The notes under the pieces were generated by a model, which was given only the letters and a program-made list of their open reading frames with translations, had not been told where the DNA came from and made no database searches. A stretch of 30,830 nt of DNA from a virus: positions 1-30,830 of IMG/VR virus record IMGVR_UViG_3300025168_000396, one strand, 5' to 3'. Shown here in pieces: positions 15,701-30,658 of the stretch (the first letter of the stretch is position 1; every line of letters starts with the position of its first letter). The translations under genes were made by a program, and so were the position numbers.

Positions 15701-17734
15701 CCAACCGTAACCATCAAAAATTCCATCGTTTTGCTGTTGGCTTCCTCCCCCGTCTGCTAGATTATTTGTAATGACCGTATTAATCATAACCCTAAGAGGA
15801 ACAAAATCTCTAAACACTTGGTGTAGCATTCTAAGGTTTTTCAAGTTGAGTTTGGAGTTTCCTTTTTGGCGGAAGTCGGCGTCTAAGGCATTAATATCTA
15901 AAACCATTACTGACGACTTTCTGTTCCAGTAATCGCTTAAGTTAGTAGTATCTTCAAACCTGTCACTTTGCAAAGGCAAGGAACTTGTATTAGGTGCTAC
16001 AGCTAAAGAAGATGTGAGAAACTTAAATCTCGGTCTATCTCCAGGCAATGGAGGAAGTTGGTCTAATCCAAGATTAGCTTTACAGAAATCGGTTATATAT
16101 TGACTGGCTTCGTGGGTGACGCCGAGTCCTCCTTGGTCGGATGCTCTTACTAAAACAGAAGAGAGCGTTCCTAAGGCTTCCAAAGTAACGTATGAATCAG
16201 AGTAAAATCTATCGTTTTCCCAGGGTGGGATGTCAACAATTTTACCACGGTGGTTGAAACCATTTGCTGAATTAGGATTATTAAGTATCCCTTTCCACAT
16301 ATCACTGTCTTTCCAATGTTCACCTTTGATGTGTATTAACTTATGTACGTTGTCTAAGTGTTGTAAAAGCACATCAACCGCAAATCGAATATTATTGTCT
16401 TCACTTTCCGAGTCATAATTAACTTTTATATTTTCAGTACGTCTCCAGAATTTACCCCATTCGCCAATATCAGCAGCGGTAGCCGATGCCATAAAAGACT
16501 CAGTCTTAAGAACGTAGTAAAGAAGGTTTGGAAAATATGACTCCCATGTCTCCGTAAGCCCACTAGTAGGAAAGAATACATCTCTATCAAAAATATGCTC
16601 GACTACAGCGTCTAACCCTGAAGCAGTTCCCTTCATTTTGTATGCCGTAACGGCATTTCTTAGCTGTTGTCTCCACTCAGTGGCATTAGTTCCAATTAAC
16701 TTCCACCCAATTAAAGTTGCTAAATAGTCTAAAAACTCAGGCGGACAGTTGTTAATATCAATAAGGTCACTTAACGAATCTACTGCGTGATGGATGTCAT
16801 ATGAAGCGTATCCAAGGGCTCTTAAAAATTTACTAAGAGAACCACTATTGGCAAACTTTGTAGGTATTAAGGTTGACGATAGATAAACATCCAAGCTGTT
16901 TTGTACCATGGGAGAGGAGTCCATGTCCTTGTTCAACCACAAGGATAACGATGTCTTGTATGCGTCTAATAGTTGTGTGCCTGAGAGATATGTCTCTCCT
17001 GAAACCTGTGCTGTGGAGGATAGGAACTCATGGGGAATAAACTTCTCAGCATCTAGATTTACATAAGCGTACTCTCTGTTTTTCCAAATATACTCGGATA
17101 GAACGTGAAGGCAAGCTTCTTCGTCCACAGAGCTTCCACCGTATAAGTTTTCAGTCCACAGACTAGAGGCTAAAGAACTTAGCTCAGTATGTTGTGCGTG
17201 TTTAGATACTATAGTCGCGCCCGAGCTATTCAGAATATGAAGTAGTCCAAACTTTTCAAGCAGTTTGTCTTGAGCTAACCCAACAGTACTTACCTCAGGG
17301 TACAGTGATGAGACACCAGGAATAGCACCTTCGTTTCCAGAAAACCATAGAGCAAACATTTGATTCGTACTATAGCTAGGACTTAAGGTTATGGAGGATA
17401 ACCCACTAGCCTCCATGAAGGTTACAAATTCAGAGGATGCCGAAAAGTCTTCCCACTGTTTGCCTAAAGGGGCTAAAAGATAATTATTAACAATCTCAGG
17501 CGTTACTCGGGTTAGTTTGTTTCCAGGTACGAATTTAGATTGAAGTTGAGCGACGCTGTTAATGGAGCTAGACTCAAATAGAGAACTAGCATCCCCAACC
17601 AACTTTAAAAAATACGAGAGGGTTTTATAACTTAGTTCTTCTGTTGAACCATAGCTTACACTCTCCCTATCTATGTACATGGAAGGTACTAGAGGGGTAA
17701 TCGAATCTATGTAGTTAAACTTTTGATTTGCCAT
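12773..17734 (-). CDS. Baseplate wedge protein, P2 gpI / T4 gp7-like, with large C-terminal extension (1653 aa)
   Basis: Start ATG 17734 in a TAATG overlap with the gp6/J-like gene, the usual J-then-I order of contractile tails. Residues about 313-382 match the tail protein I signature: IDINNCPPEFLDYLATLIGW, then WRQQLRNAVTAYKMKGT and an amphipathic helix (SGLDAVVEHIF). In P2 gpI and T4 gp7 this region helps hold wedges to the inner baseplate ring. P2 gpI is under 200 residues and T4 gp7 about 1,000, so this protein is unusually long. Residues about 1115-1355 look like an inserted carbohydrate-binding-like jelly roll (NFLTNPDF, a conserved Trp, GLVPGKTYKLSLDTVS, LFLSYGTG). Residues 540-1100 contain large Ser/Asn/Gly-rich segments of unknown fold. 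The wedge assignment rests on the gpI motif and the neighbours; the lectin-like module is inferred from pattern only. Confidence 0.87.
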   Translation of the reverse strand: MANQKFNYIDSITPLVPSMYIDRESVSYGSTEELSYKTLSYFLKLVGDASSLFESSSINSVAQLQSKFVPGNKLTRVTPEIVNNYLLAPLGKQWEDFSASSEFVTFMEASGLSSITLSPSYSTNQMFALWFSGNEGAIPGVSSLYPEVSTVGLAQDKLLEKFGLLHILNSSGATIVSKHAQHTELSSLASSLWTENLYGGSSVDEEACLHVLSEYIWKNREYAYVNLDAEKFIPHEFLSSTAQVSGETYLSGTQLLDAYKTSLSLWLNKDMDSSPMVQNSLDVYLSSTLIPTKFANSGSLSKFLRALGYASYDIHHAVDSLSDLIDINNCPPEFLDYLATLIGWKLIGTNATEWRQQLRNAVTAYKMKGTASGLDAVVEHIFDRDVFFPTSGLTETWESYFPNLLYYVLKTESFMASATAADIGEWGKFWRRTENIKVNYDSESEDNNIRFAVDVLLQHLDNVHKLIHIKGEHWKDSDMWKGILNNPNSANGFNHRGKIVDIPPWENDRFYSDSYVTLEALGTLSSVLVRASDQGGLGVTHEASQYITDFCKANLGLDQLPPLPGDRPRFKFLTSSLAVAPNTSSLPLQSDRFEDTTNLSDYWNRKSSVMVLDINALDADFRQKGNSKLNLKNLRMLHQVFRDFVPLRVMINTVITNNLADGGGSQQQNDGIFDGYGWGTGGLLPSGIFCIQGDYSKQDSALDVVNQTFASGFQGAQSGDASAGSFQEGRYVPDVNTTYWETVGAVPARNVARARNLRYNLPGRFFSRNGRNTPHTMDFMNTYFWGDTPATMASAGHFIDTLSKEGFGFAFSALEASSYQPKGWNFSSQSYLDVSSREFDTSNSIRANRDGHARPKWQSSETGLSANSCFPFRSPEKYSVDCSAMGAEERHRVFEITRTIIDVILKNNEVYEDRALLNFNHEDLLNKEFGTGIHQLFRTCTDVFFNRIENDPFSIINHIFGPFVIGHDIPLRGKVLNGDLDNTQAHTPGKAPGVDDTIITRHEYKAVLGGEGIHGNLLYNSSGHVKLIENYGLASEGGLHAYKPDIDSMFGIKQYSNISLLSAVEVVASPTSKSFAVLNDVYSPLRVTDENIDMMSLFGRGAHRKYEDCLKFRYPLLQNKNFLTNPDFKPNPTLRTDLPLYSLDIKGWDLADLARDPVWNNTGSNTGTLTYEDGSNGPFSNYNTLNDLAGNNNYIVIVSKLSNTIAGNPFKNKAAPTIRTSTNTFSDTSSTDLKSLRTGLVPGKTYKLSLDTVSQVDTGAWTYVLANVTKNEYYSTWGWGASSINAVNVTLPATSTATREILEDTILIPDNFEPGDDYQLFLSYGTGTGTTAGKWSALFNASLKEVISSESNCLLTDSKYRFTIEAQAGGVKFENLEIPRKFGVLGARVTTDVVPDAFGRNRRYVYNFIDKTWIDLNVNHYVRDLTSGVEFLKAENSLFTSGGEFKRKGSGSPFIGMYHTMNNNGIVSYMEGAFHNYGAQGVLIPVSDNHCQKDLMEDGVLFSIPASTEHTQKLEFDIHTIGQPHIHTSSTGYYVEFFRVQGPNPERPAAETRVDIHTIAGYSLGLRELTTKLFNVADYDKDDTASILRYFQSIVTTYKLNSRNPDDSAQLAGPNGGGRSEMITPYGGGYRTNADDGEATFGTGNESTTLYEI

Positions 17735-19341
17735 TAAACTATGTCTACTGTAATCTCAAAGTTGTTGAGCTGTATAATTTCGTTGAGGTTTGCGTAGATA
17801 TCGCCTGGAAAGTTATCAACTTTAAAGTATCGAACTCCAGGAATATCATTCATATAATTTTGTAACTTAGACAGAGACAGTGCTTCTCCAAACTCTCTAT
17901 TGTCTACATCGAAGTATTTTAAAAGACCATCCGCAGCCTCTTGTTTAATCGCATTTCTTCGGTACGTGTCAGACTCATCTACAAGAAGGGTACAGTTTAA
18001 ATCCAAAGTTCGAATAACTCCGTCCACAATAGTTAATTCATCTGTCATCATTTTCAAATTATTAAGGTGGTCTAGCAGCTCGGCTTTAAGAAGTAAAGAA
18101 CATCTCTCTAATTGAAGTTGGGATGCTTTAGCTAAGCAATAAATATCAATGTTATTTGCACCTGCTCCGTTATTCCGTAGAACTGCCATTGCTTTACCTA
18201 TGGTTCCGTTTGTGGAAGAATAGTCATTCGCTGCCGCGGTATAATCCTCTCCTGTAACGCACCTATGTTGAGCTTTAAAAACGTGTGGGTAGTACTTCTT
18301 AGCGTGTTCTACACTTTCACTATCCCGACCTCCAGTAGCTTTAGAGGTGTTAAATACTGTGACGTTGCCTGTATTACCAGTATTTTTAGTAGTTGTTACA
18401 GACATGTTTATAACATTTCTAGAAATGTTTCCTCTTTCGCCGCCTCCAACTCTATAAAACACTTTAGCATCTACACCGGGAGTAGGTTTCTTTCCTTTTG
18501 TACCATTTCCAAACAGTAAGGTAGCTCTATACTGCTCATCGTACGTCTTTTCAAACACAGCTTGTGTAGAAGACGCTAAATATAACGAATTTATCTCTTG
18601 CCATAAAGTACCATCGGCAGAAGAAACTGTAATGCTGCCTTCTACGACAGGGGATACACTAAGGTTCATTTTAAACTCCTCATCAGTTGTACTAAAAGTG
18701 TGAACCTCTTCTTGTAAAGTCCCTTCTAATAAATAGAAGTTACTTTGTGTTAAGTTAGTCGAGTCAACATCGAAATCTAAATCCTCTACACTACTTACAT
18801 CAAATATAATATTTCCATCTGCATTCCCTTTATATAAAACAAAAGATACAGGTTTTCCATCTTTATCAGAGGCTCCCTGTAACGTTCTATTGGCTTTGGA
18901 GATAGTAGTTCTATTTGCACCGTCAGTAAAGAAATCGGTAGCAAAAGATATGGAAGCCTCAGCTTTAGCTGAAGTTGGGCCTTTTATTTTTACACCAATT
19001 AATTGTAAAAGTTTATCAAGGTTAGCGGTGGTTTTCACAGTGCTTAAATAACTTTCATTCGCAAGAAAATCTGCTTTCAAAGAAATAACACTAGCCAAAT
19101 AAGCGAATAGCTCAGTAAACATTATACCCATGTCAGACTCTACAAAGTTTGTGAACTCGTCAGGGTAAACGGCCATCATGTAATCAAGCAAGGCCGATTT
19201 ATAAGACGCAAAGTCTGTTAGAGAGTAATCAATATACTCTGGCTTATCCTTTTCAAGAATAGCTGCATATCTTAAGTAATCAGATTCGATGGTTCCATCA
19301 AAAGATGAAACGTTGTACAAAGGGTTAGAGGGAAAAGACAT
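17734..19341 (-). CDS. Baseplate wedge protein, gpJ / T4 gp6-like (535 aa)
   Basis: Start ATG 19341, three bases after the stop of the gp25-like gene. The N-terminal region (residues about 20-120) has the family pattern: YLRYAAILEKDKPEYIDYSL, DEFTNFVESDMGIMFTELFA with YLASVISLKADFLANESYL, then an LDKLLQLIGVKIKG helix-turn before a beta domain. Near residue 360 is RCVTGEDYTAAA, equivalent to the 'R.VT..DY' motif of baseplate J-like proteins. The C-terminus has a plait-like region with DLNCTLLVDES and ends in NNFEITVDIV. T4 gp6 (about 660 aa) and P2 gpJ (about 300 aa) dimerise to join neighbouring wedges into the inner ring that drives sheath contraction. The length and the gp25 / J / I order make this one of the firmest assignments in the window. 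Confidence 0.92.
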   Translation of the reverse strand: MSFPSNPLYNVSSFDGTIESDYLRYAAILEKDKPEYIDYSLTDFASYKSALLDYMMAVYPDEFTNFVESDMGIMFTELFAYLASVISLKADFLANESYLSTVKTTANLDKLLQLIGVKIKGPTSAKAEASISFATDFFTDGANRTTISKANRTLQGASDKDGKPVSFVLYKGNADGNIIFDVSSVEDLDFDVDSTNLTQSNFYLLEGTLQEEVHTFSTTDEEFKMNLSVSPVVEGSITVSSADGTLWQEINSLYLASSTQAVFEKTYDEQYRATLLFGNGTKGKKPTPGVDAKVFYRVGGGERGNISRNVINMSVTTTKNTGNTGNVTVFNTSKATGGRDSESVEHAKKYYPHVFKAQHRCVTGEDYTAAANDYSSTNGTIGKAMAVLRNNGAGANNIDIYCLAKASQLQLERCSLLLKAELLDHLNNLKMMTDELTIVDGVIRTLDLNCTLLVDESDTYRRNAIKQEAADGLLKYFDVDNREFGEALSLSKLQNYMNDIPGVRYFKVDNFPGDIYANLNEIIQLNNFEITVDIV

Positions 19342-22926: not shown

Positions 22927-22934
22927 TATTTATA
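22927..22934 (-). promoter_or_regulatory. TATAAATA string before the LamG-protein gene (possible T4-type late promoter)
   Basis: An exact match to the T4 late-promoter core TATAAATA lies at the junction of the PAAR and LamG genes, overlapping the PAAR stop codon and one base before ATG 22925. A transcript from it would leave almost no leader. The octamer is expected about twice per strand by chance at this AT content, and one exact copy lies inside a coding region (24936-24943). Weak call. Confidence 0.2.
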
Positions 22935-23334
22935 ATATTTGTACGAAGTCTTCGCCGTCAATGATTTTGTGGTTACAGTCACACATGCTGCCTACGAAAG
23001 CAACCTCTAAACCGTTAATCGTAATGTAAGATTTCCCTTCAGAAACTCTCCATTGATATTCCAGGTGTACATCTGGTGCGCGAGTTTCATCATCATCCTC
23101 CTCATCTTCGACACCTGGAGTAGTGGGTGAGTTGGGTATAAAATCTCCAGGTCCAGCGTATCCTCCTCCTGTTGCTGGTCCCCCATTGCCTTCATGAGTT
23201 GTTCCTTGGTCTCCCACAACAACAACTTCTTGTCCATTAACAGTGACAAATTCTTGCTGCACGTGTGTGACTACACCAACACCTCCTGTTCCGGCGGCGT
23301 CTAACAGGCTCATTTTTCTTGCGATACTAGGCAT
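22930..23334 (-). CDS. PAAR-type spike-tip protein with internal disordered linker (134 aa)
   Basis: Start ATG 23334, overlapping the previous gene by 8 bp; a weak TAAGG lies upstream. The N-terminus MPSIARKMSLLDAAG resembles the opening of PAAR proteins. There are two PAAR-like halves: FVTVNGQEVVVVGDQGTTHEG (residues 29-49, with a likely metal-ligand His at 47) and SYITINGLEVAFVGS with MCDCNHKI (residues 102-124, candidate ligands Cys118, Cys120, His122). PAAR proteins fold as a small sharp cone with a bound metal ion and cap the gp5/VgrG spike (T4 gp5.4 is an example). Here residues about 50-90 form a Gly/Pro-rich then acidic linker (EDEEDDDE) between the halves, unlike the compact family. 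Which residues bind metal is inferred, not shown. The context downstream of the spike gene supports the role. Confidence 0.87.
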   Translation of the reverse strand: MPSIARKMSLLDAAGTGGVGVVTHVQQEFVTVNGQEVVVVGDQGTTHEGNGGPATGGGYAGPGDFIPNSPTTPGVEDEEDDDETRAPDVHLEYQWRVSEGKSYITINGLEVAFVGSMCDCNHKIIDGEDFVQIL

Positions 23335-23650
23335 ATAAACTTACCTTAGTTGTATCTAAGGCTACATTATTTAGTGGAGCCGAAGTAATTTCCATGGGTT
23401 CCTTGGGTTGGAGGTTTATTACCCCTCCGGAAAATAATGACCTATTAAGGTCAGTGCTTAATACTAAAGTTTTTATAAGAAGAGGAACTCCTGGTCCTAT
23501 CCCTGAGTTTCCATGAACTGAGGTAATTCCGCTGGCTTCAGTGGGAAGTCCAGGGGTTAATCTAAGTGCTACGTCTAAGGTGAGACTTTCATGTACCGAA
23601 GGCGTTAGGTCTCTGCCTGTAAAAGGAAATAAAAGAGGAACTAATACCAT
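23327..23650 (-). CDS. Small virion-associated protein of unknown function (107 aa)
   Basis: I place the start at ATG 23650, in a TAATG overlap with the stop of the 449-aa gene. The frame also allows a GTG at 23665, five codons earlier, but that start has no usable Shine-Dalgarno spacing. The protein is MVLVPLLFPFTGRDLTPS..., with HESLTLDVALRLTPG, VPLLIKTLVLSTDLN and INLQPKEPMEI: short beta-strand-like aliphatic stretches separated by Pro/Gly turns. The first hydrophobic residues could be a weak membrane segment but are short and more likely a buried strand. It ends in TAG, the only non-TAA stop in this window. It sits between the 449-aa protein and the PAAR tip, which suggests a spike- or hub-associated part. 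I do not recognise the family. Confidence 0.72.
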   Translation of the reverse strand: MVLVPLLFPFTGRDLTPSVHESLTLDVALRLTPGLPTEASGITSVHGNSGIGPGVPLLIKTLVLSTDLNRSLFSGGVINLQPKEPMEITSAPLNNVALDTTKVSLYA

Positions 23651-24999
23651 TAGATTTGGTCCCACCTTCCAGAAGAAGAGTCGTAACTGTAATTTCTCCC
23701 AGTTTGGGAGGTTATGTTATACCCACAATCTTGTTCATAAAAGCCTTCATATTGAAATGCAAGAACCTGTTTGCCTGTGCCTTCTAAAGAATTTTCTCTG
23801 CATATTGCAACAATAGATTCCCCATCGTTAGAAAAGTTGTCGGTTCTGTGTGACAGTCTTATAGTTTCATGCGCTCTAGAATCAAAAAATGCTTCTTCTA
23901 AATCTAAAGCTGAGGTTCCACTTAGAATACTTCTCATAGTGTTGCCTACGAATTCATTTGCACTAGCTGACACAGGTACTCTAGTAGCGATTGGGTCATA
24001 AGTACCATTACTTCTTAATTTGTAAAAATCATAAACTGCTTTACCTGATTTGTTGTATTCAGCAGCGTAAACTCGCAGCTTAGTTATTGTTAGATTTCCT
24101 TTGCCAGATGAATAAGGAAAACCTTCTACCATCATAGTTTTAGGAAACTCTTTGTTTTGTAACAACGTTATAAACTCACCAGAGGAGGTTGTAACCTCGC
24201 CAGAGCTAGGTGTGTAAGAGCTACCAGTTAAATTAACCCTACTGAATCCAGCCACCTCTGTAGGTCTTGAATTATAATACTCAAAGGTAATGGCTAAAAA
24301 AGCTTCTTCCGAGGTCTTTAAATCAAAGCTCGTACTTCCTATAGACGAGTTGTAAAACTCAAGAAACTGTGCGGCTCCATTTGTAAACTGTCCGGCATGG
24401 TAATAAACCTGTATGTCTTCTGTATAAGTAGGGTTATCAAGTACAAAAGAGGACACTACTGAAGATAAGGTGTTGAGGTCCGCTTGCGTGGAGGAAACAT
24501 CCATATAAAGTTGATGTCCTACTGGGAGCGCAAAAGGCTCTACGCTTGTTATTTTGTAAAGAGAATTTAAACCCGATTGGGAGTCTTGTTCTTCTCCCAC
24601 GGGAGGTATTCCCGAAGTAGTTTGGGTTGACGCCGTCGTTCCTAATTCCTTATGAAAATGGTAGTATTGAATATCATTAGACAAAGTACGGACACCTCGA
24701 GGTCCTCGGACTCCACGTAAAGGGATAACATTATCTGCGGACTCACCTACAAACAAATCTACATTAAACACAATAGGAAGAGAATAAACAGTCTCTTTAG
24801 TGCTTGGGCTGCCACCGCCAGTTGAACCCGAAACATACACAGTGTAGTAAGCTTGTGGTGCGATATTATGTACATCTGGACTTAAGCTGGGATAAAACTT
24901 AAAATTACTTATGTGGACAATTTCCGTTGAATTGTTATTTATAAGCTGTCTCCTAGAAGGGATAGCGTCATATGGGAAACCTAGGTCAAGAGTTGGCAT
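23650..24999 (-). CDS. Virion structural protein of unknown family near the spike (449 aa)
   Basis: Start ATG 24999 in a TAATG overlap with the spike gene. A strong AGGAGG lies nine bases upstream inside that gene's end, so initiation may be efficient and partly independent. The protein is beta-rich and polar: FNVDLFVGESADNVIPL near 80, DIQVYYHAGQF near 200, EAFLAITFEYYNSRPTEV near 230, LTITKLRVYAAEYNKSG near 305, then IVAICREN and VLAFQYEGFYEQDCGY near 400-425. A basic RGVRGPRGVR turn is at about 94-103. No catalytic, membrane or coiled-coil signal is visible. Its place between the gp5-like spike and PAAR genes suggests a hub- or spike-associated baseplate part, perhaps a sleeve or adaptor. 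I do not recognise the family and assign no function. Confidence 0.82.
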   Translation of the reverse strand: MPTLDLGFPYDAIPSRRQLINNNSTEIVHISNFKFYPSLSPDVHNIAPQAYYTVYVSGSTGGGSPSTKETVYSLPIVFNVDLFVGESADNVIPLRGVRGPRGVRTLSNDIQYYHFHKELGTTASTQTTSGIPPVGEEQDSQSGLNSLYKITSVEPFALPVGHQLYMDVSSTQADLNTLSSVVSSFVLDNPTYTEDIQVYYHAGQFTNGAAQFLEFYNSSIGSTSFDLKTSEEAFLAITFEYYNSRPTEVAGFSRVNLTGSSYTPSSGEVTTSSGEFITLLQNKEFPKTMMVEGFPYSSGKGNLTITKLRVYAAEYNKSGKAVYDFYKLRSNGTYDPIATRVPVSASANEFVGNTMRSILSGTSALDLEEAFFDSRAHETIRLSHRTDNFSNDGESIVAICRENSLEGTGKQVLAFQYEGFYEQDCGYNITSQTGRNYSYDSSSGRWDQI

Positions 25000-27581
25000 T
25001 ATGGCACTCCTCCTGCGTCACCTACTTCTCCTCCTCCAGGAGGGAGGTAATATTGAGTAGCCGTATACGTTGGGCCATTAGCACCCGTAGAAGTATTTGA
25101 GGCTCCTTGGGATGCGGTTGTTTCTCCCCCAGGAAGAGTTTGAGAGGTAATAGGGTTAGGGGTAATAGAAGCACCCCCTTGAGATTCTAAACCCTTATTT
25201 GTTTTTGAAGTCATAGCATCCCTATTGTAATCTTCAGTATCAAAAGTTCTAGCGGTTGTTTGGAACCAACCCACTTGAGCATTTAAGTCCTCACCTCCCC
25301 CTCTTTGGCGGTTGTGTCTTATACTGTCTGTAGAGTTGTAAGTGCCATCAATCTCAGTAGAGTCGAAAGTAACACCTCCACCACCAGTACCACCCCCACC
25401 GTCGACTCCAGGAGTATCGGCGCCGTAAACATTGTCACTCAGGTTAAGACCATCACCATCACCACCACCGCCTTCGCCAGCTCCAGGTCCACCTGGGGTT
25501 ATCCCATCATTAAAGCTTATATGTGTCATAGGTATATCGTTTTCGATTGCATACTCTACAATTGCTTGATTAATCCCAGGAGAGTTCGGGATGTTCGGAG
25601 CAGACGCAGCGGGAGTACCTGGGGTAGCCGGGGCGAGAGGTTTATCAGGACGCTTAGGTATACCTTCATTAGCGTTGAAGCGGTCAGTCCAACTAGAACC
25701 TGGCGTTGATGGGCTATAAGGGTCTTTACTTTTCGGATAGGGTGGTGTGTTCGGTACGGTCGGTGTACTAGGTGTACTAGGTGTACTAGGTGTTGCTGGT
25801 GCGTACGGCGTGTTCGGTGTACTAGGTTGGCTAGGTGTTTGTGGTGTCGCAGGAGCAGCAGGGACACCGCCAGCGGGAACCGTCGCAGAAGGCGGTCCAG
25901 AGAAAGAAGGGAGTCCGCCTTGGCCAGGACCAGGGGGAGTACCCGGAAGAGGACGGAAGTCCCAGGTGAACTCGCCATATACGCCAGAACTAGGACCCTC
26001 TGCTCCTTCGAAGTTCCATACAGGAGGTTCTGCTGTTCTACCTTCTCCATCCGTTCCTTCTTCTCCTTCCTCGCCTCCACCTCCGCCGGCACCTCCACCG
26101 CCGCCAGTCTGAGCGGAGAAGCCAGTATCAGTTTCAATCTCGCGACAAGGGGATAGGGAGTCTGGGACAGCATTGTTATATTCTGCGTCGAACTCTCTAG
26201 ATGGCATAGTGACATTCTCGGATATTGAAATGGTCTTTCCATTTATAGTAATCTTATTAGCCTCTAAATGCAAATGGTCTTTCGCCGTTACATAAACATC
26301 GGTACCCATTAAATGGGCTCTCTTTACTGCTCCGGTTACTACACCTCCGGGCTGGCCAAATAAGGCCAAACCTTGTTTACCGGAGTTCAATGTCACCCAA
26401 CCCTTCTTGTGGCTCATTTGGAGATTTTGATTCACGCTTCCCATCCCATTGCGAACGGTAAACGCACCTTTCGACCTTATACCTACTGACCCTAGAATTT
26501 TAGGGATACCTGTTTCGGGGTCAACACTTTCGTCTTCATTCCAAGCATTTAAACATATTCTATATCTGGCGACTGCGGCTATATCACCTTCCTCTATATC
26601 TATTTCTAGGTTTCCCTTAGCTAGGTTTGTAATTAAGATATGAGCGTCTTCTGCTTCTTGGTCTAAAATAGAAAGATTAATATTCCCTTCTCTAGTTTCA
26701 AGGAACAAAGCGTTTTTAGCATATACTTGAATTGAATCTTCTACCCCATCTTCTCCTGCGGATGTCTGAATCCAAATACGGTTCGGACCTCCGTCAACAT
26801 CAAAATCCTCACCGTCGGCAATTATAATTCTATCTCCAGTTGCTCCCATAGGCACGCTAGGCTCTGTACCTATATCGGTCCTTGGGTCAGCGTCATCTAG
26901 CAAAATCATCTTACCCATTGCAGACTTAATAGTAATGTGTTTTTCTTCGGCTTCCTCCGTGTGCTTTTCAGACATTACGATTTTATTCCCCTTTGGGCTT
27001 TTCCATATGTATTGCTCAGGTTGGTGGTTGTCTTTGTAATTAACAAAGCCTTCGGGAACACCATGTGTCAGCATTTTAGGGTCTCCGTCTTGCTGACCAT
27101 ATTTTGCATAAGGGACTGGTGATTCTACCTTTTTAGCCTCGTCATCCGAGCCTTTAGGTTGTGTGATAGTGTTTTCACCTCCAGGTTCAAGTTCTAAATT
27201 CGCAAGGCAGGCGAACCAAACCCAACCTTCACCTTCAACTTCCGTAATTAAAACCATTGCCCCTATCCCAGGAACATTAAAAAACCCATATCCTGCGCCG
27301 CCAAATGAGGTGGCCATTTTACAGTCAAACGGTTCTTCTCCCATGATTGCATTGCAAATAACTTTAACCCTACCACTTTTATAAACATCATCTACTTGTT
27401 CTATTCTAGCAGAGAATGTTTTACCATAAGTTGGGTTGCCTCCTGCAATAGATGTTAAGTAATCAGCGCCTGCGGCTGCTGCTGTAGATGTCTGTTTCTT
27501 GGCAATGCCTGTATCTAACAAGGCTTGCGTTATCATTTTTGAGTGTGACTCAAGAGCTTTTAATCTACTAAATATTCCCAT
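24999..27581 (-). CDS. Baseplate central spike, gp5 / gpV / VgrG-like, with long disordered X-Thr-Pro tail (860 aa)
   Basis: Start ATG 27581, with GAGGG eight bases upstream. After a short helical N-terminus comes an OB-fold region of the gp5/gpV type (residues about 45-135: ARIEQVDDVYKSGRVKVIC, GAGYGFFNVPGIGAMVLITE, WVWFACLANLE). The N-part is followed by WKSPKGNKIVMSEK and a long run of short alternating strands to about residue 460 (ITIKSAMGKMILLDD, IQVYAKNALFLETREGNIN, DVYVTAKDHLHLEANKITIN), the pattern of the trimeric VgrG/gp5 beta-helix needle. No lysozyme domain lies between OB fold and helix, unlike T4 gp5. Residues about 490-860 are low complexity: poly-Gly/Glu, then X-Thr-Pro triads near 575-613, then Gly/Asp and Ser/Thr-rich. 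Such a tail on a spike is unusual. In this family the trimer punctures the outer membrane with a PAAR cap. Confidence 0.9.
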   Translation of the reverse strand: MGIFSRLKALESHSKMITQALLDTGIAKKQTSTAAAAGADYLTSIAGGNPTYGKTFSARIEQVDDVYKSGRVKVICNAIMGEEPFDCKMATSFGGAGYGFFNVPGIGAMVLITEVEGEGWVWFACLANLELEPGGENTITQPKGSDDEAKKVESPVPYAKYGQQDGDPKMLTHGVPEGFVNYKDNHQPEQYIWKSPKGNKIVMSEKHTEEAEEKHITIKSAMGKMILLDDADPRTDIGTEPSVPMGATGDRIIIADGEDFDVDGGPNRIWIQTSAGEDGVEDSIQVYAKNALFLETREGNINLSILDQEAEDAHILITNLAKGNLEIDIEEGDIAAVARYRICLNAWNEDESVDPETGIPKILGSVGIRSKGAFTVRNGMGSVNQNLQMSHKKGWVTLNSGKQGLALFGQPGGVVTGAVKRAHLMGTDVYVTAKDHLHLEANKITINGKTISISENVTMPSREFDAEYNNAVPDSLSPCREIETDTGFSAQTGGGGGAGGGGGEEGEEGTDGEGRTAEPPVWNFEGAEGPSSGVYGEFTWDFRPLPGTPPGPGQGGLPSFSGPPSATVPAGGVPAAPATPQTPSQPSTPNTPYAPATPSTPSTPSTPTVPNTPPYPKSKDPYSPSTPGSSWTDRFNANEGIPKRPDKPLAPATPGTPAASAPNIPNSPGINQAIVEYAIENDIPMTHISFNDGITPGGPGAGEGGGGDGDGLNLSDNVYGADTPGVDGGGGTGGGGVTFDSTEIDGTYNSTDSIRHNRQRGGGEDLNAQVGWFQTTARTFDTEDYNRDAMTSKTNKGLESQGGASITPNPITSQTLPGGETTASQGASNTSTGANGPTYTATQYYLPPGGGEVGDAGGVP
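25009..25014 (-). promoter_or_regulatory. Strong ribosome binding site for the 449-aa gene
   Basis: AGGAGG on the minus strand, nine bases before ATG 24999 and inside the last codons of the spike gene. It is the best Shine-Dalgarno match I found at any gene start here; most other starts have weak or no match and rely on overlap with the preceding stop. Confidence 0.75.
25744..25851 (-). repeat. Tandem 9-bp units encoding X-Thr-Pro triads in the spike tail
   Basis: Twelve consecutive 9-bp units of the form ggtgtacta (+ strand) lie in register. Three at 25762-25788 are identical and another perfect copy is at 25816-25824; the rest are diverged. On the coding strand each gives an X-Thr-Pro triad (STP, NTP, QTP, with YAP, TVP and SQP variants). 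The number of perfect units could change by replication slippage without breaking the frame. Confidence 0.93.
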
Positions 27582-27583
27582 TG

Positions 27584-30343
27584 TTAATACCCTCTCTTTG
27601 CATCGTTTGCTTTATTGCGTGCGGCAATCCTCTCGGAAGCATTTTTGCCGTCAATTACGTTTGCGCCTGTTTTTTCAGACTCTCCACCTTCCCCATCTCC
27701 ACCTTCTCCACCTTCATCATCTAAGAAGTTGGGTTCTACAGGGATTAAATCAAGAGTAGTAGTAAATCCAGCTTCTACAGATATAGTGTGTTCCCATCCT
27801 ATAATTTTATATGTTCCACCTATGGAGTGTCCTATGTCACCCCCTCCACCTCTCATATCAGGTACTACTAGTTGAACGGTTCTAGTTAACTCATGTCCAG
27901 TACATATTTCTGGTAGTCCTACTGTAACAACCTGAGGTGTGAAGAAAGTTAAACCCCAGTTTACGGCAGCTTGACCTGCTTTGGCTACAACAGCATCGGG
28001 TTTCTTCTCTAGCTTCTTAGCTTCTTGAGTTTTAGGAGATACAGCTATAGTCTTTATTTTATTTTTAGGCTTATTAGTAACTGAGTCGGGTTCTAGATAC
28101 TTCTTTAAAACTGTCCACATATTACCTATCATAATCCCTTCATGACGCTGATTCATATACTCCTCGTATTTCTCGAGCGCCACTTTCTTTAAGTTTGCTA
28201 TTTTCTCGACAATTCCTTTATTAACATCATCCTCAGTACGTTGCACTTTCACATCGGAATGATTAAAAGGAATCGCTTGAATAGTTTCAACGGAAGCTTT
28301 TACACCTTTGACGATGCTTTGCCAACCTCCAACCCAAAGTGTTATGTCAATACCGTCCGGGGATATCCAAGGATAAGATTTAATCTTACGTAAAAGGTCG
28401 GGGGCTGACTTGTCTATAGCTCCAGGTAAGTCCTGAGGGTTAGCTATATAGACAACTAAATCTTCTGGGTCGACATCCATGGCCTTCCCTTCTTCCTGTA
28501 GTTCAGCGGCATGAATAAGTTTCCAACCTACCTGAGGGCCATTATCACCAATAATTTCATTCTGCCATACGACATACCTGTTTAAGAAGTCGGAAAGAGT
28601 ATCTCCCTCTTTAACGCTTAACATAAGTTGAGCGTCCTTGGACGTGTCAGTGCCTCCTTTATCGCCTCCCTCACCACCACCTTCACCACCACCTTCACCT
28701 CCGCCAGGTGCTCCATCAGCATAACCAACCATGGTATTAACACTAAAGGGGTCGTCGCTAAACAAAAAGTTTAGGGGGTCGTATTGAGAATCTTCGCTGG
28801 CTAAGCCTCCAGGTGGAGGGTAAAATTGAGCAGTGTTTAGGTCGTTGATTTGGTCAGCCCTTGCCTGCATTTTACATGTCTCGACGATTATTTTAGCGAC
28901 CTCTGTTTTAGTTAATCGAAAAAACCAGGTACCTTGTCCATGCTCATCTTCAACAGCAACATCTTGCGTAGGAACTTCAAACATTGAGTCGCTCCATATA
29001 GATTCCTGGTCAAGGCCTATCAGGGTTAGATTTCTTAAGGCATAATCTAAAGTAGGTGCTAGGGTTATCCAACCAAAGCCGTCATCTCTATCCCAAAGGG
29101 CAAGATTCCTTTGTCCCGTATCCAGTATTATTTGTTGTTGTCCTTGTACCCAGAATTCATACCGACCAGAGTATTGCTCCTCCCACTTAGGAAGGGTTGC
29201 AGTTTTATTAAAAATAAGTTTAGCCTCACTAAGCTTATGGAGATATTCACTAGGTCCTTTTATTAAAGGGGAAAAATTTTTATTATCAAATTGTGCGGGT
29301 ATATTTGGAGTTTTTGGGGGACGACCTAACAGTATGGAGGTATTGCTTCTTTGGGGGGTAGAGAGTTGTGATAATTGGCCAGTATCGTCTTGCGTGTTAT
29401 CTCTTACTTCATAGTCTTCCCCCCAACCCTTGTGTTTTGTATACAGTTGTCCTTCGAGGTCCTCAGGGTTTGAAACCTCGTCCGCGTCAGGTAATTTTAT
29501 AATAAAAGGGCTCTCCTCGAAAAATTGAAAAATAGCTTGGTCTTGAGCGTAATTCTCATCCATAGTTTCTAATCCTACTTCTAAATCTGTATATTCCCCT
29601 TTTCCCGTAAACGGGCCCATCTTATCGCCACTTCCACCATCTTCCTGTGGTGTAAATCCCTTCATTATTGATTTTTTAAGTTTACCTATCGAAAAAGCTG
29701 TTTGAGGTTTTATACTGGTAGATTCTACAATACAGGAGACAGATTCAAAAGAAAGAGCTTTCTTAAGTAGTTCTTCTATACCTTCGGCAGCACCAAATTC
29801 CTTTAGGCTAACCTTGCCAGCGAGGATAGCTTTCGAGTCTTTGTCGAATACAAGATTATCCACTTTTGCTAAACCGTCGTCAGGGGAGGCGAACATCATC
29901 TTAATAACAACCTCCTGACCTAAATTCATAGAATAATTAGCACTGATAAGAGTGGCTTTTAGTATCTTTGATTTACCTATTGCGTTATCCCAGCCAAAAA
30001 CAAACTCGTACCTCTGACCACCCTTTGCTATGTTACTAAAAATTGACCTCTCTACAGCAAGAGAAGGTAATGCAATCGTTAGCTCTATGTATTTATGAGG
30101 TCCGTTCTTTTGGCTTTTAAAGCCCGCCTTAAAACTTCTCATACCTTCTCGAAGATTAAAAGGGTCAGAATCTTCCCCTTCAGGCCGGACAGCAACAAAC
30201 GCTATGCCATTATTTGTAGCTACAAATGGTCTTTCTTGTAAACCACTACCACCGCCGCCTTTAGCATCATTTGCTGCATTACGGTCTGCTATCCTCTCGG
30301 AAGCATTTTTGCCGTCGATGACGTTTGCGCCTGTTTTAACCAT
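27584..30343 (-). CDS. Baseplate hub protein, gp27 / gpD-like, with repeated terminal peptide (919 aa)
   Basis: Start ATG 30343, six bases after the gp53-like stop, with no clear Shine-Dalgarno. The segment near residues 839-869 (GTYKIIGWEHTISVEAGFTT, then LDLIPVEPN) is the closing motif of gp27/gpD/late-control-D hub proteins, which form the trimeric platform for the spike; the spike gene is next, as expected. Residues about 60-170 contain an early strand-rich domain (FKAGFKSQKNGPHKYIELTI, YEFVFGWDNAIGKSKILKAT). A LysM-like or gp53-like stretch, SVKEGDTLSDFLNRY, lies near 573, after a Gly-rich linker (about 545-562). The N-terminus (residues 3-28) and C-terminus carry nearly the same peptide, KTGANVIDGKNASERIA..., each joined by a Gly-rich linker. 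T4 gp27 is 391 residues, so this is greatly enlarged. Hub identity is likely; the role of the terminal repeats is unknown. Confidence 0.84.
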   Translation of the reverse strand: MVKTGANVIDGKNASERIADRNAANDAKGGGGSGLQERPFVATNNGIAFVAVRPEGEDSDPFNLREGMRSFKAGFKSQKNGPHKYIELTIALPSLAVERSIFSNIAKGGQRYEFVFGWDNAIGKSKILKATLISANYSMNLGQEVVIKMMFASPDDGLAKVDNLVFDKDSKAILAGKVSLKEFGAAEGIEELLKKALSFESVSCIVESTSIKPQTAFSIGKLKKSIMKGFTPQEDGGSGDKMGPFTGKGEYTDLEVGLETMDENYAQDQAIFQFFEESPFIIKLPDADEVSNPEDLEGQLYTKHKGWGEDYEVRDNTQDDTGQLSQLSTPQRSNTSILLGRPPKTPNIPAQFDNKNFSPLIKGPSEYLHKLSEAKLIFNKTATLPKWEEQYSGRYEFWVQGQQQIILDTGQRNLALWDRDDGFGWITLAPTLDYALRNLTLIGLDQESIWSDSMFEVPTQDVAVEDEHGQGTWFFRLTKTEVAKIIVETCKMQARADQINDLNTAQFYPPPGGLASEDSQYDPLNFLFSDDPFSVNTMVGYADGAPGGGEGGGEGGGEGGDKGGTDTSKDAQLMLSVKEGDTLSDFLNRYVVWQNEIIGDNGPQVGWKLIHAAELQEEGKAMDVDPEDLVVYIANPQDLPGAIDKSAPDLLRKIKSYPWISPDGIDITLWVGGWQSIVKGVKASVETIQAIPFNHSDVKVQRTEDDVNKGIVEKIANLKKVALEKYEEYMNQRHEGIMIGNMWTVLKKYLEPDSVTNKPKNKIKTIAVSPKTQEAKKLEKKPDAVVAKAGQAAVNWGLTFFTPQVVTVGLPEICTGHELTRTVQLVVPDMRGGGGDIGHSIGGTYKIIGWEHTISVEAGFTTTLDLIPVEPNFLDDEGGEGGDGEGGESEKTGANVIDGKNASERIAARNKANDAKRGY
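27590..27597 (-). promoter_or_regulatory. Ribosome binding site for the spike gene
   Basis: AGAGAGGG on the minus strand, eight bases before ATG 27581. It overlaps the end of the hub coding sequence, so the KRGY C-terminal codons double as the ribosome binding site. It supports ATG 27581 as the start. Confidence 0.65.
27627..27673 (-). repeat. Terminal direct repeat of the hub gene, C-terminal copy
   Basis: Second copy of the repeat at 30291-30337, two mismatches in 47 bases, encoding the last part of the hub protein. Counting the weaker flank (27596-27626), the encoded peptides agree at 24 of 26 residues. It is preceded in the protein by a Gly/Glu-rich linker; the N-terminal copy is followed by GGGGSG. 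Confidence 0.95.
28671..28706 (-). repeat. 12-bp tandem repeat encoding Gly-Gly-Glu linker in the hub
   Basis: Two perfect units tcaccaccacct (28671-28682, 28683-28694) and one diverged unit encode a GGGEGGGEGGGEGG linker. It separates the N-terminal part of the hub from the GDTLSDFL (LysM/gp53-like) segment, as expected for a flexible interdomain tether. Confidence 0.88.
30291..30337 (-). repeat. Terminal direct repeat of the hub gene, N-terminal copy
   Basis: This 47-base segment encodes the N-terminal peptide beginning KTGANVIDGKNASERI. It matches 27627-27673 at 45 of 47 positions, counted by eye, in the same orientation and frame, 2,664 bases apart (888 codons). Similarity continues more weakly for about 31 bases on the low-coordinate side (30260-30290). 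Confidence 0.95.
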
Positions 30344-30349
30344 GAATAA

Positions 30350-30658
30350 TTAATCAACAAATGGGGTACCAGGAATTTCCGGAAGAAAAATCTTCTTACC
30401 TGTCGTTAGTTCAGTTTTAGCGTCTTGGATTCTATTGGCGAGCATTATAACCCACCACAATTCTTCCGTGTCGTAAACCTGTAAGGCTAAAAGGTCAGGA
30501 CGACCATTAACTCCTTCAGGTATAATAGCAACCCTAAAATTAGAATTTCCCATATTCTCAATAAAATTAGAAAACTCAATAGAAGGGGAAAGTACCGAAA
30601 GGGGTTTGTCTCGGTGTGTAACAGAAACAGCTTTAAATATTTTGTGAGGATTCGTCAT
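30350..30658 (-). CDS. Baseplate wedge protein, T4 gp53-like (102 aa)
   Basis: Start ATG 30658, three bases after the stop of the partial upstream gene. Near residues 65-95 it shows DTEELWWVIMLANRIQDAKT, then GKKIFLPEI. This matches the gp53/LysM-related pattern 'Y.V..TE.LW.IILLANNI.DP...... G..L.IP' found in T4 gp53 and small baseplate proteins of many contractile phages. Gp53 locks adjacent wedges round the hub late in baseplate assembly. T4 gp53 is about 196 residues; this form keeps mainly the C-terminal core. It has no membrane or signal segment. It lies just before the hub gene, in the usual baseplate order. A general LysM-domain 'tail assembly' protein is the alternative. Confidence 0.85.
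   Translation of the reverse strand: MTNPHKIFKAVSVTHRDKPLSVLSPSIEFSNFIENMGNSNFRVAIIPEGVNGRPDLLALQVYDTEELWWVIMLANRIQDAKTELTTGKKIFLPEIPGTPFVD

Follow-up and report, generated by a model that had tools for sequence, protein, structure and literature searches.

The window analysed here, the whole stretch of 30,830 nucleotides of viral DNA (IMG/VR record IMGVR_UViG_3300025168_000396), encodes a 919-residue protein, very probably the baseplate hub of a contractile-tailed phage, that carries the same peptide at both of its ends. The feature is real, statistically solid, apparently undescribed, and confined to one phage lineage. The most likely reading of its function, judged from constraint, architecture, and position, is that the two peptides are docking tags, by which the protein would be fastened to another part of the tail.

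Identification of the hub

The gene (27584..30343, minus strand) was recognised from its surroundings and from the predicted fold of one domain. Directly downstream lies a gene for an 860-residue spike-like protein with a Phage_base_V OB domain, in the position of gp5/VgrG (24999..27581, minus strand; PF04717, E 5e-6), and upstream lies one for a gp53-like baseplate wedge protein of 102 residues (30350..30658, minus strand; phrog_7145, E 1e-9). The full order is gp53-like, hub, OB-fold spike, further genes, PAAR, gp25, gp6/J, and Tail_P2_I, and Streptomyces phage BRock has a 'late control D' gene at the position equivalent to that of the hub. The 131-residue domain behind the N-terminal peptide (residues 35-165; 29849..30241, minus strand) was modelled with AlphaFold2 at moderate confidence (pLDDT 65.5, pTM 0.58) as a tail-tube/hub barrel. 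Its best Foldseek matches are almost all tube, hub, and VgrG proteins, among them the SPP1 tube, a contractile injection system, a phage baseplate hub, T4 gp27 (2z6b and 1k28), and VgrG, with E between 8e-4 and 6e-2 and probabilities of 0.9-1.0 for the top matches, and a viral model library returned COG3500 protein D, XkdQ, and late control D. The full-length model was poor (pLDDT 39.8) and too weak for a fold search. A PDB profile search with the hub was discarded, since the 60 matches listed were antibody fragments, mostly scFv, probably found through a Gly-rich linker.

The name 'hub' given in the initial annotation thus fits the gene order and the N-terminal fold, but no family in Pfam or PHROGs assigns it: the protein had no significant match in either, and no phage in INPHARED has a detectable relative of it. 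The assignment as a gp27/gpD-type hub stands on gene order and on the fold match of the N-terminal domain, not on family libraries. Sequence comparison detects no similarity between T4 gp27 and Mu gp44, so a family match is not required of hubs (PMC3004832). With hubs of the T4 gp27, Mu gp44, and P2 gpD type the protein shares the place of its gene beside an OB-fold spike and the N-terminal tube-fold barrel; it differs from them by its 919 residues, its Gly-rich linkers, and its matching ends, and it has no sequence match to described hub families. An internal Gly/Glu-rich linker, GGGEGGGEGGGEGGDKGG (28658..28711, minus strand), recurs in the closest relative, L003. The C-terminal domain (residues 655-870; 27734..28381, minus strand) is strand-rich, with strands seen in the low-confidence model, and is kept in all relatives. 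We propose it as a second barrel with a helical insertion, although no sequence similarity between it and the first barrel was found.

Some neighbouring genes have features of their own. The spike gene contains Pro/Thr-rich 9-bp repeats (STPSTPSTP) at 25725-25860 and, further on, Gly-rich linkers and peptide inserts that are replaced in an 83%-identical relative (L041); the first 485 residues of the two spike proteins are 98.6% identical. The PAAR-motif protein (22930-23334) is separately encoded and adjoins a 112-residue ORF (23327-23665) that starts with GTG, overlaps its neighbours, and is kept in relatives. The gp6/J protein (17734-19341) has its nearest deposited relative, at 28% identity, in a 595-kb uncultured huge phage (LR756511) with a similar order of baseplate genes.

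Two copies of one peptide at the ends of the hub

The N-terminal copy (hereafter N-tag), KTGANVIDGKNASERIADRNAANDAK, occupies residues 3-28 (30260..30337, minus strand) and is joined to the core by the linker GGGGSGLQERP (residues 29-39; 30227..30259, minus strand), the hubs of L076 and L077 starting directly at the core that follows. The C-terminal copy (C-tag), KTGANVIDGKNASERIAARNKANDAK, occupies residues 891-916 (27596..27673, minus strand) behind the linker PNFLDDEGGEGGDGEGGESE (residues 871-890; 27674..27733, minus strand). Residues 14-27 and 902-917 are helical in the low-confidence model. The copies agree at 24 of 26 residues and 66 of 78 bases and appear as a direct DNA repeat of 77 nt with 86% identity and a spacing of 2,664. 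The Gly-rich stretch expected beside each of them was seen (GGGGSG after the N-tag, DDEGGEGGDGEGGESE ahead of the C-tag), and the near-identical DNA core noted earlier corresponds to the first 15 codons, 45 bp that differ at two silent positions only.

Chance does not account for the matching ends. When the first 70 residues were compared with the last 70 in 335 distinct ORFs of at least 150 residues, from the window and all fetched loci, the hub had a local score of 120 and the next ORF 50, and no other ORF had clearly matching ends. An error or echo of contig assembly, raised in the initial annotation for the second copy, is unlikely and was rejected: 12 of the 78 bases differ between the copies, each of which is in frame and placed at a normal gene junction. 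A literature search found no description of a hub with matching terminal peptides, in agreement with the earlier impression that the design lacks a known precedent.

Divergence and selection between the copies

Ten of the 26 codons differ between the tags, eight silently and two by replacement (D to A, A to K). The Nei-Gojobori estimates are a dN of 0.060 and a dS of 0.77, the latter taken from a short sequence with about 18 silent sites, and when 12 changes were placed at random in a neutral simulation, two or fewer replacements had a P of 5e-5. Since silent changes far exceed replacements, both copies are translated and constrained as protein, which bears out the suggestion that selection acts on both ends. 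This pattern tells against a role at the level of DNA, in which homologous recombination between the direct repeats could exchange or remove the whole hub gene. The repeats do bracket the gene exactly, and the 45-bp core is long enough for recombination, but conservation tracks codons rather than bases, the hubs of relatives are collinear, and close relatives give no sign of whole-gene exchange; we regard such a role as very improbable.

The silent divergence also bears on the age of the pair. A recent duplication had been one of the explanations offered, but the dS between the tags exceeds that between the hub and its closest, 90%-identical relative (0.19, against 0.10-0.31 for neighbouring genes), and at least eight silent differences in about 18 sites would have a P of 0.006 at a dS of 0.19 and of 0.05 at 0.30. 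A very recent origin of the copies is therefore not the best reading of these sequences: either the pair predates the split from L003, which then lost its C-tag, or the tags arrived already diverged. The hub as a whole is replaced at about twice the rate of its neighbours or more (dN 0.048 against 0.006-0.025; 27584-30343 compared with L041 1-1170).

The differences are unevenly spread, with two in the first 15 codons and eight in the last 11 (Fisher P = 0.004). The 45-bp core may owe its greater likeness to partial gene conversion or to chance; the gene conversion proposed earlier is possible for this core. Such clustering would also suit a functionless product of chance recombination, in which one end was copied across, or the pair came from another phage, the core being kept similar by gene conversion. 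Relatives that differ at both ends fit this account too, as does a tag codon usage near the low edge of the window range (5.6th and 13th percentile), even if a foreign origin was not accepted from codon use, in which the tags are weakly unusual only. However, silent changes outnumber replacements outside the core as well (six against two in the last 11 codons), and we consider a functionless pair improbable.

Ends of related hubs

The tag peptide, sought at the ends of related hubs, is absent from every relative compared. First, the hub of L003 is 90% identical across the part that was sequenced (residues 485-874). It retains a modified Gly/Glu-rich linker ahead of the C-terminus, and past (S/P)EK its tail is exchanged for the unrelated EKKELTRKEKEELKQSSRDAGIWP; the N-terminus of this hub lies off the contig. 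The possibility that close relatives carry a single copy, which would speak against a shared role of both, is thus half borne out, at the C-terminal end. Second, the hubs of L046, L058, and L073 (37-39% identity) start with MSNKISETLKTPYW and end with FEALKSGFGDLFNQINPFGGSSEGGPPQ, extensions that both differ from the tags of the window, and in L046 and L058 the two ends show no likeness to one another (P = 0.64). Third, the hub of L048 and L060 (27-30%) has no C-terminal extension. Fourth, those of L076 and L077 (31%) have neither extension, their core opening with MVIAATNDG and stopping after the last conserved strand. Searches with gp53 and with the hub N-terminus found no more close relatives.

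The core is collinear across all these hubs, which rules out a circular permutation following a tandem duplication. Because the relatives have other extensions or none around this conserved core, and because none shows the peptide, the tags are late additions, specific to the lineage of the window and placed at the exact ends of the hub, and not a feature of the hub family.

Searches for the peptide elsewhere

The tag was found in no other protein of the window. Among viral contigs, the query GKNASERIA returned only GKNARERIA, in an unrelated family of conserved proteins of 60-100 residues present in many contigs (L004-L040), and NVIDGKNA returned only unrelated ORFs; among genome contigs, DGKNASERI gave three chance-like matches. 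These collections may omit records of the window's own genome. A tblastn search of phages and plasmids found nothing, with low power at 26 residues. Comparisons with Pfam (best YqbF_HeH, E 0.18, below the cut-off) and the PDB (best E 1.1) gave no significant match, and no known docking or targeting peptide, HeH/SAP-like or other, matched the tag significantly. A group of small, helical-looking, coiled-coil-like phage ORFs of about 118 residues (L061, L063-L065, L067, L068, and L070) carries NVIDGKNAExRxAQxR, which resembles the first half of the tag and shares with it the eight residues NVIDGKNA. The motif is internal in these small proteins, unlike in the hub, and they have no further similarity to it; the likeness is probably a coincidence.

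Docking at both ends as a candidate function

Our preferred reading, to which we give somewhat less than an even chance, is that the lineage added the same linker-borne helical docking peptide to both ends of a gp27/gpD-type hub. The idea of an assembly tag had been voiced in the initial annotation; it stays plausible, but no partner was identified. The N-tag would immediately precede the N-terminal tube-fold barrel, and the C-tag would directly follow the C-terminal domain, taken as a second barrel, so that a hub trimer would present six near-equivalent linker-borne helices to a sixfold or multi-copy partner. Tube initiator, wedge, sheath, and the end of the tape measure are candidates for this partner, which may be encoded upstream, beyond the contig end, as could be the case for the tube initiator, the sheath, or the tape measure. 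With six such handles, it would make sense that one peptide is required at both termini and that selection constrains each copy. In the trimer of T4 gp27, a turn of about 60 degrees relates the two barrels (residues 2-111 and 207-239 plus 307-368), which form a pseudo-sixfold torus that adjusts the threefold spike to the sixfold baseplate (PMC3004832).

A number of observations favour docking: each end combines a flexible linker with a helix seen in the low-confidence model, and the core, by the boundaries of the L076 and L077 hubs, lies between the two tags. Against it stand the lack of a partner and a C-terminal barrel that the full model (pLDDT 39.8) does not confirm structurally. The sixfold part is the least secure step. 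The C-tag is not essential to hub function generally, because L003 does without it, and tagging in six copies is not a rule, because the two extensions of L046 and L058 do not match each other. The different tails of different relatives suggest exchangeable docking modules. A broader version, that a phage hub copes with the change from threefold to sixfold symmetry by one and the same docking peptide per barrel, six identical handles in a trimer, with a lock-and-key sequence swapped between lineages, seems to us rather unlikely, if a little less so than the alternatives to docking discussed below.

The tags might instead bind each other, the N-tag of one subunit pairing with the C-tag of its neighbour to close the hub ring or trimer. 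The same peptide on both ends, predicted to be helical in each copy, would suit such head-to-tail pairing, and in phage XM1 the N-terminus of one sheath subunit pairs with the C-terminus of an adjacent one in a 'handshake' (PMC10457771). However, a charged, Ala-rich helix with a single Ile in each copy is weak as a coiled coil, the handshake arms of other systems consist of complementary strands and not of one peptide copied, and most relatives manage without such a belt, so that self-association has in our judgement a low probability. The terminal arms of the E217 and XM1 sheath and terminator proteins likewise fasten neighbouring tail subunits, but they do so by strand augmentation and not through a helical peptide present twice (PMC10329688, PMC10457771).

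The two tags could also have separate jobs, or serve a protease, chaperone, or degradation adaptor that cleaves or binds them only during assembly. The linkers would expose both ends to such factors. The short AAND of the N-tag resembles ssrA tags, but it reads KAND in the C-tag. Neither a protease gene nor a cleavage motif was identified in this connection, the known families are unmatched, and nothing supports cleavage, so that the processing signal once suggested has become less likely. We think it doubtful that either use accounts for the tags, even though a linker of T4 gp5, part of the same complex, undergoes cleavage (PMC3004832). For docking itself, the closest working likeness is the cargo-loading peptide of encapsulins, a short terminal peptide, carried on a flexible Ala/Pro/Gly-rich linker, by which a protein docks to an assembly (PMC8229669); it differs in sequence and system and stands at one end only, and docking by the hub is our own proposal.

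How a trimeric hub meets the sixfold parts of the tail is a basic question of assembly. If identical, constrained, lineage-specific tags serve for docking, they offer a simple and testable solution and would suggest that the baseplate contains swappable modules of specificity. At a minimum, this hub offers a clear example of a structural protein in which selection maintains a repeated peptide at the termini.
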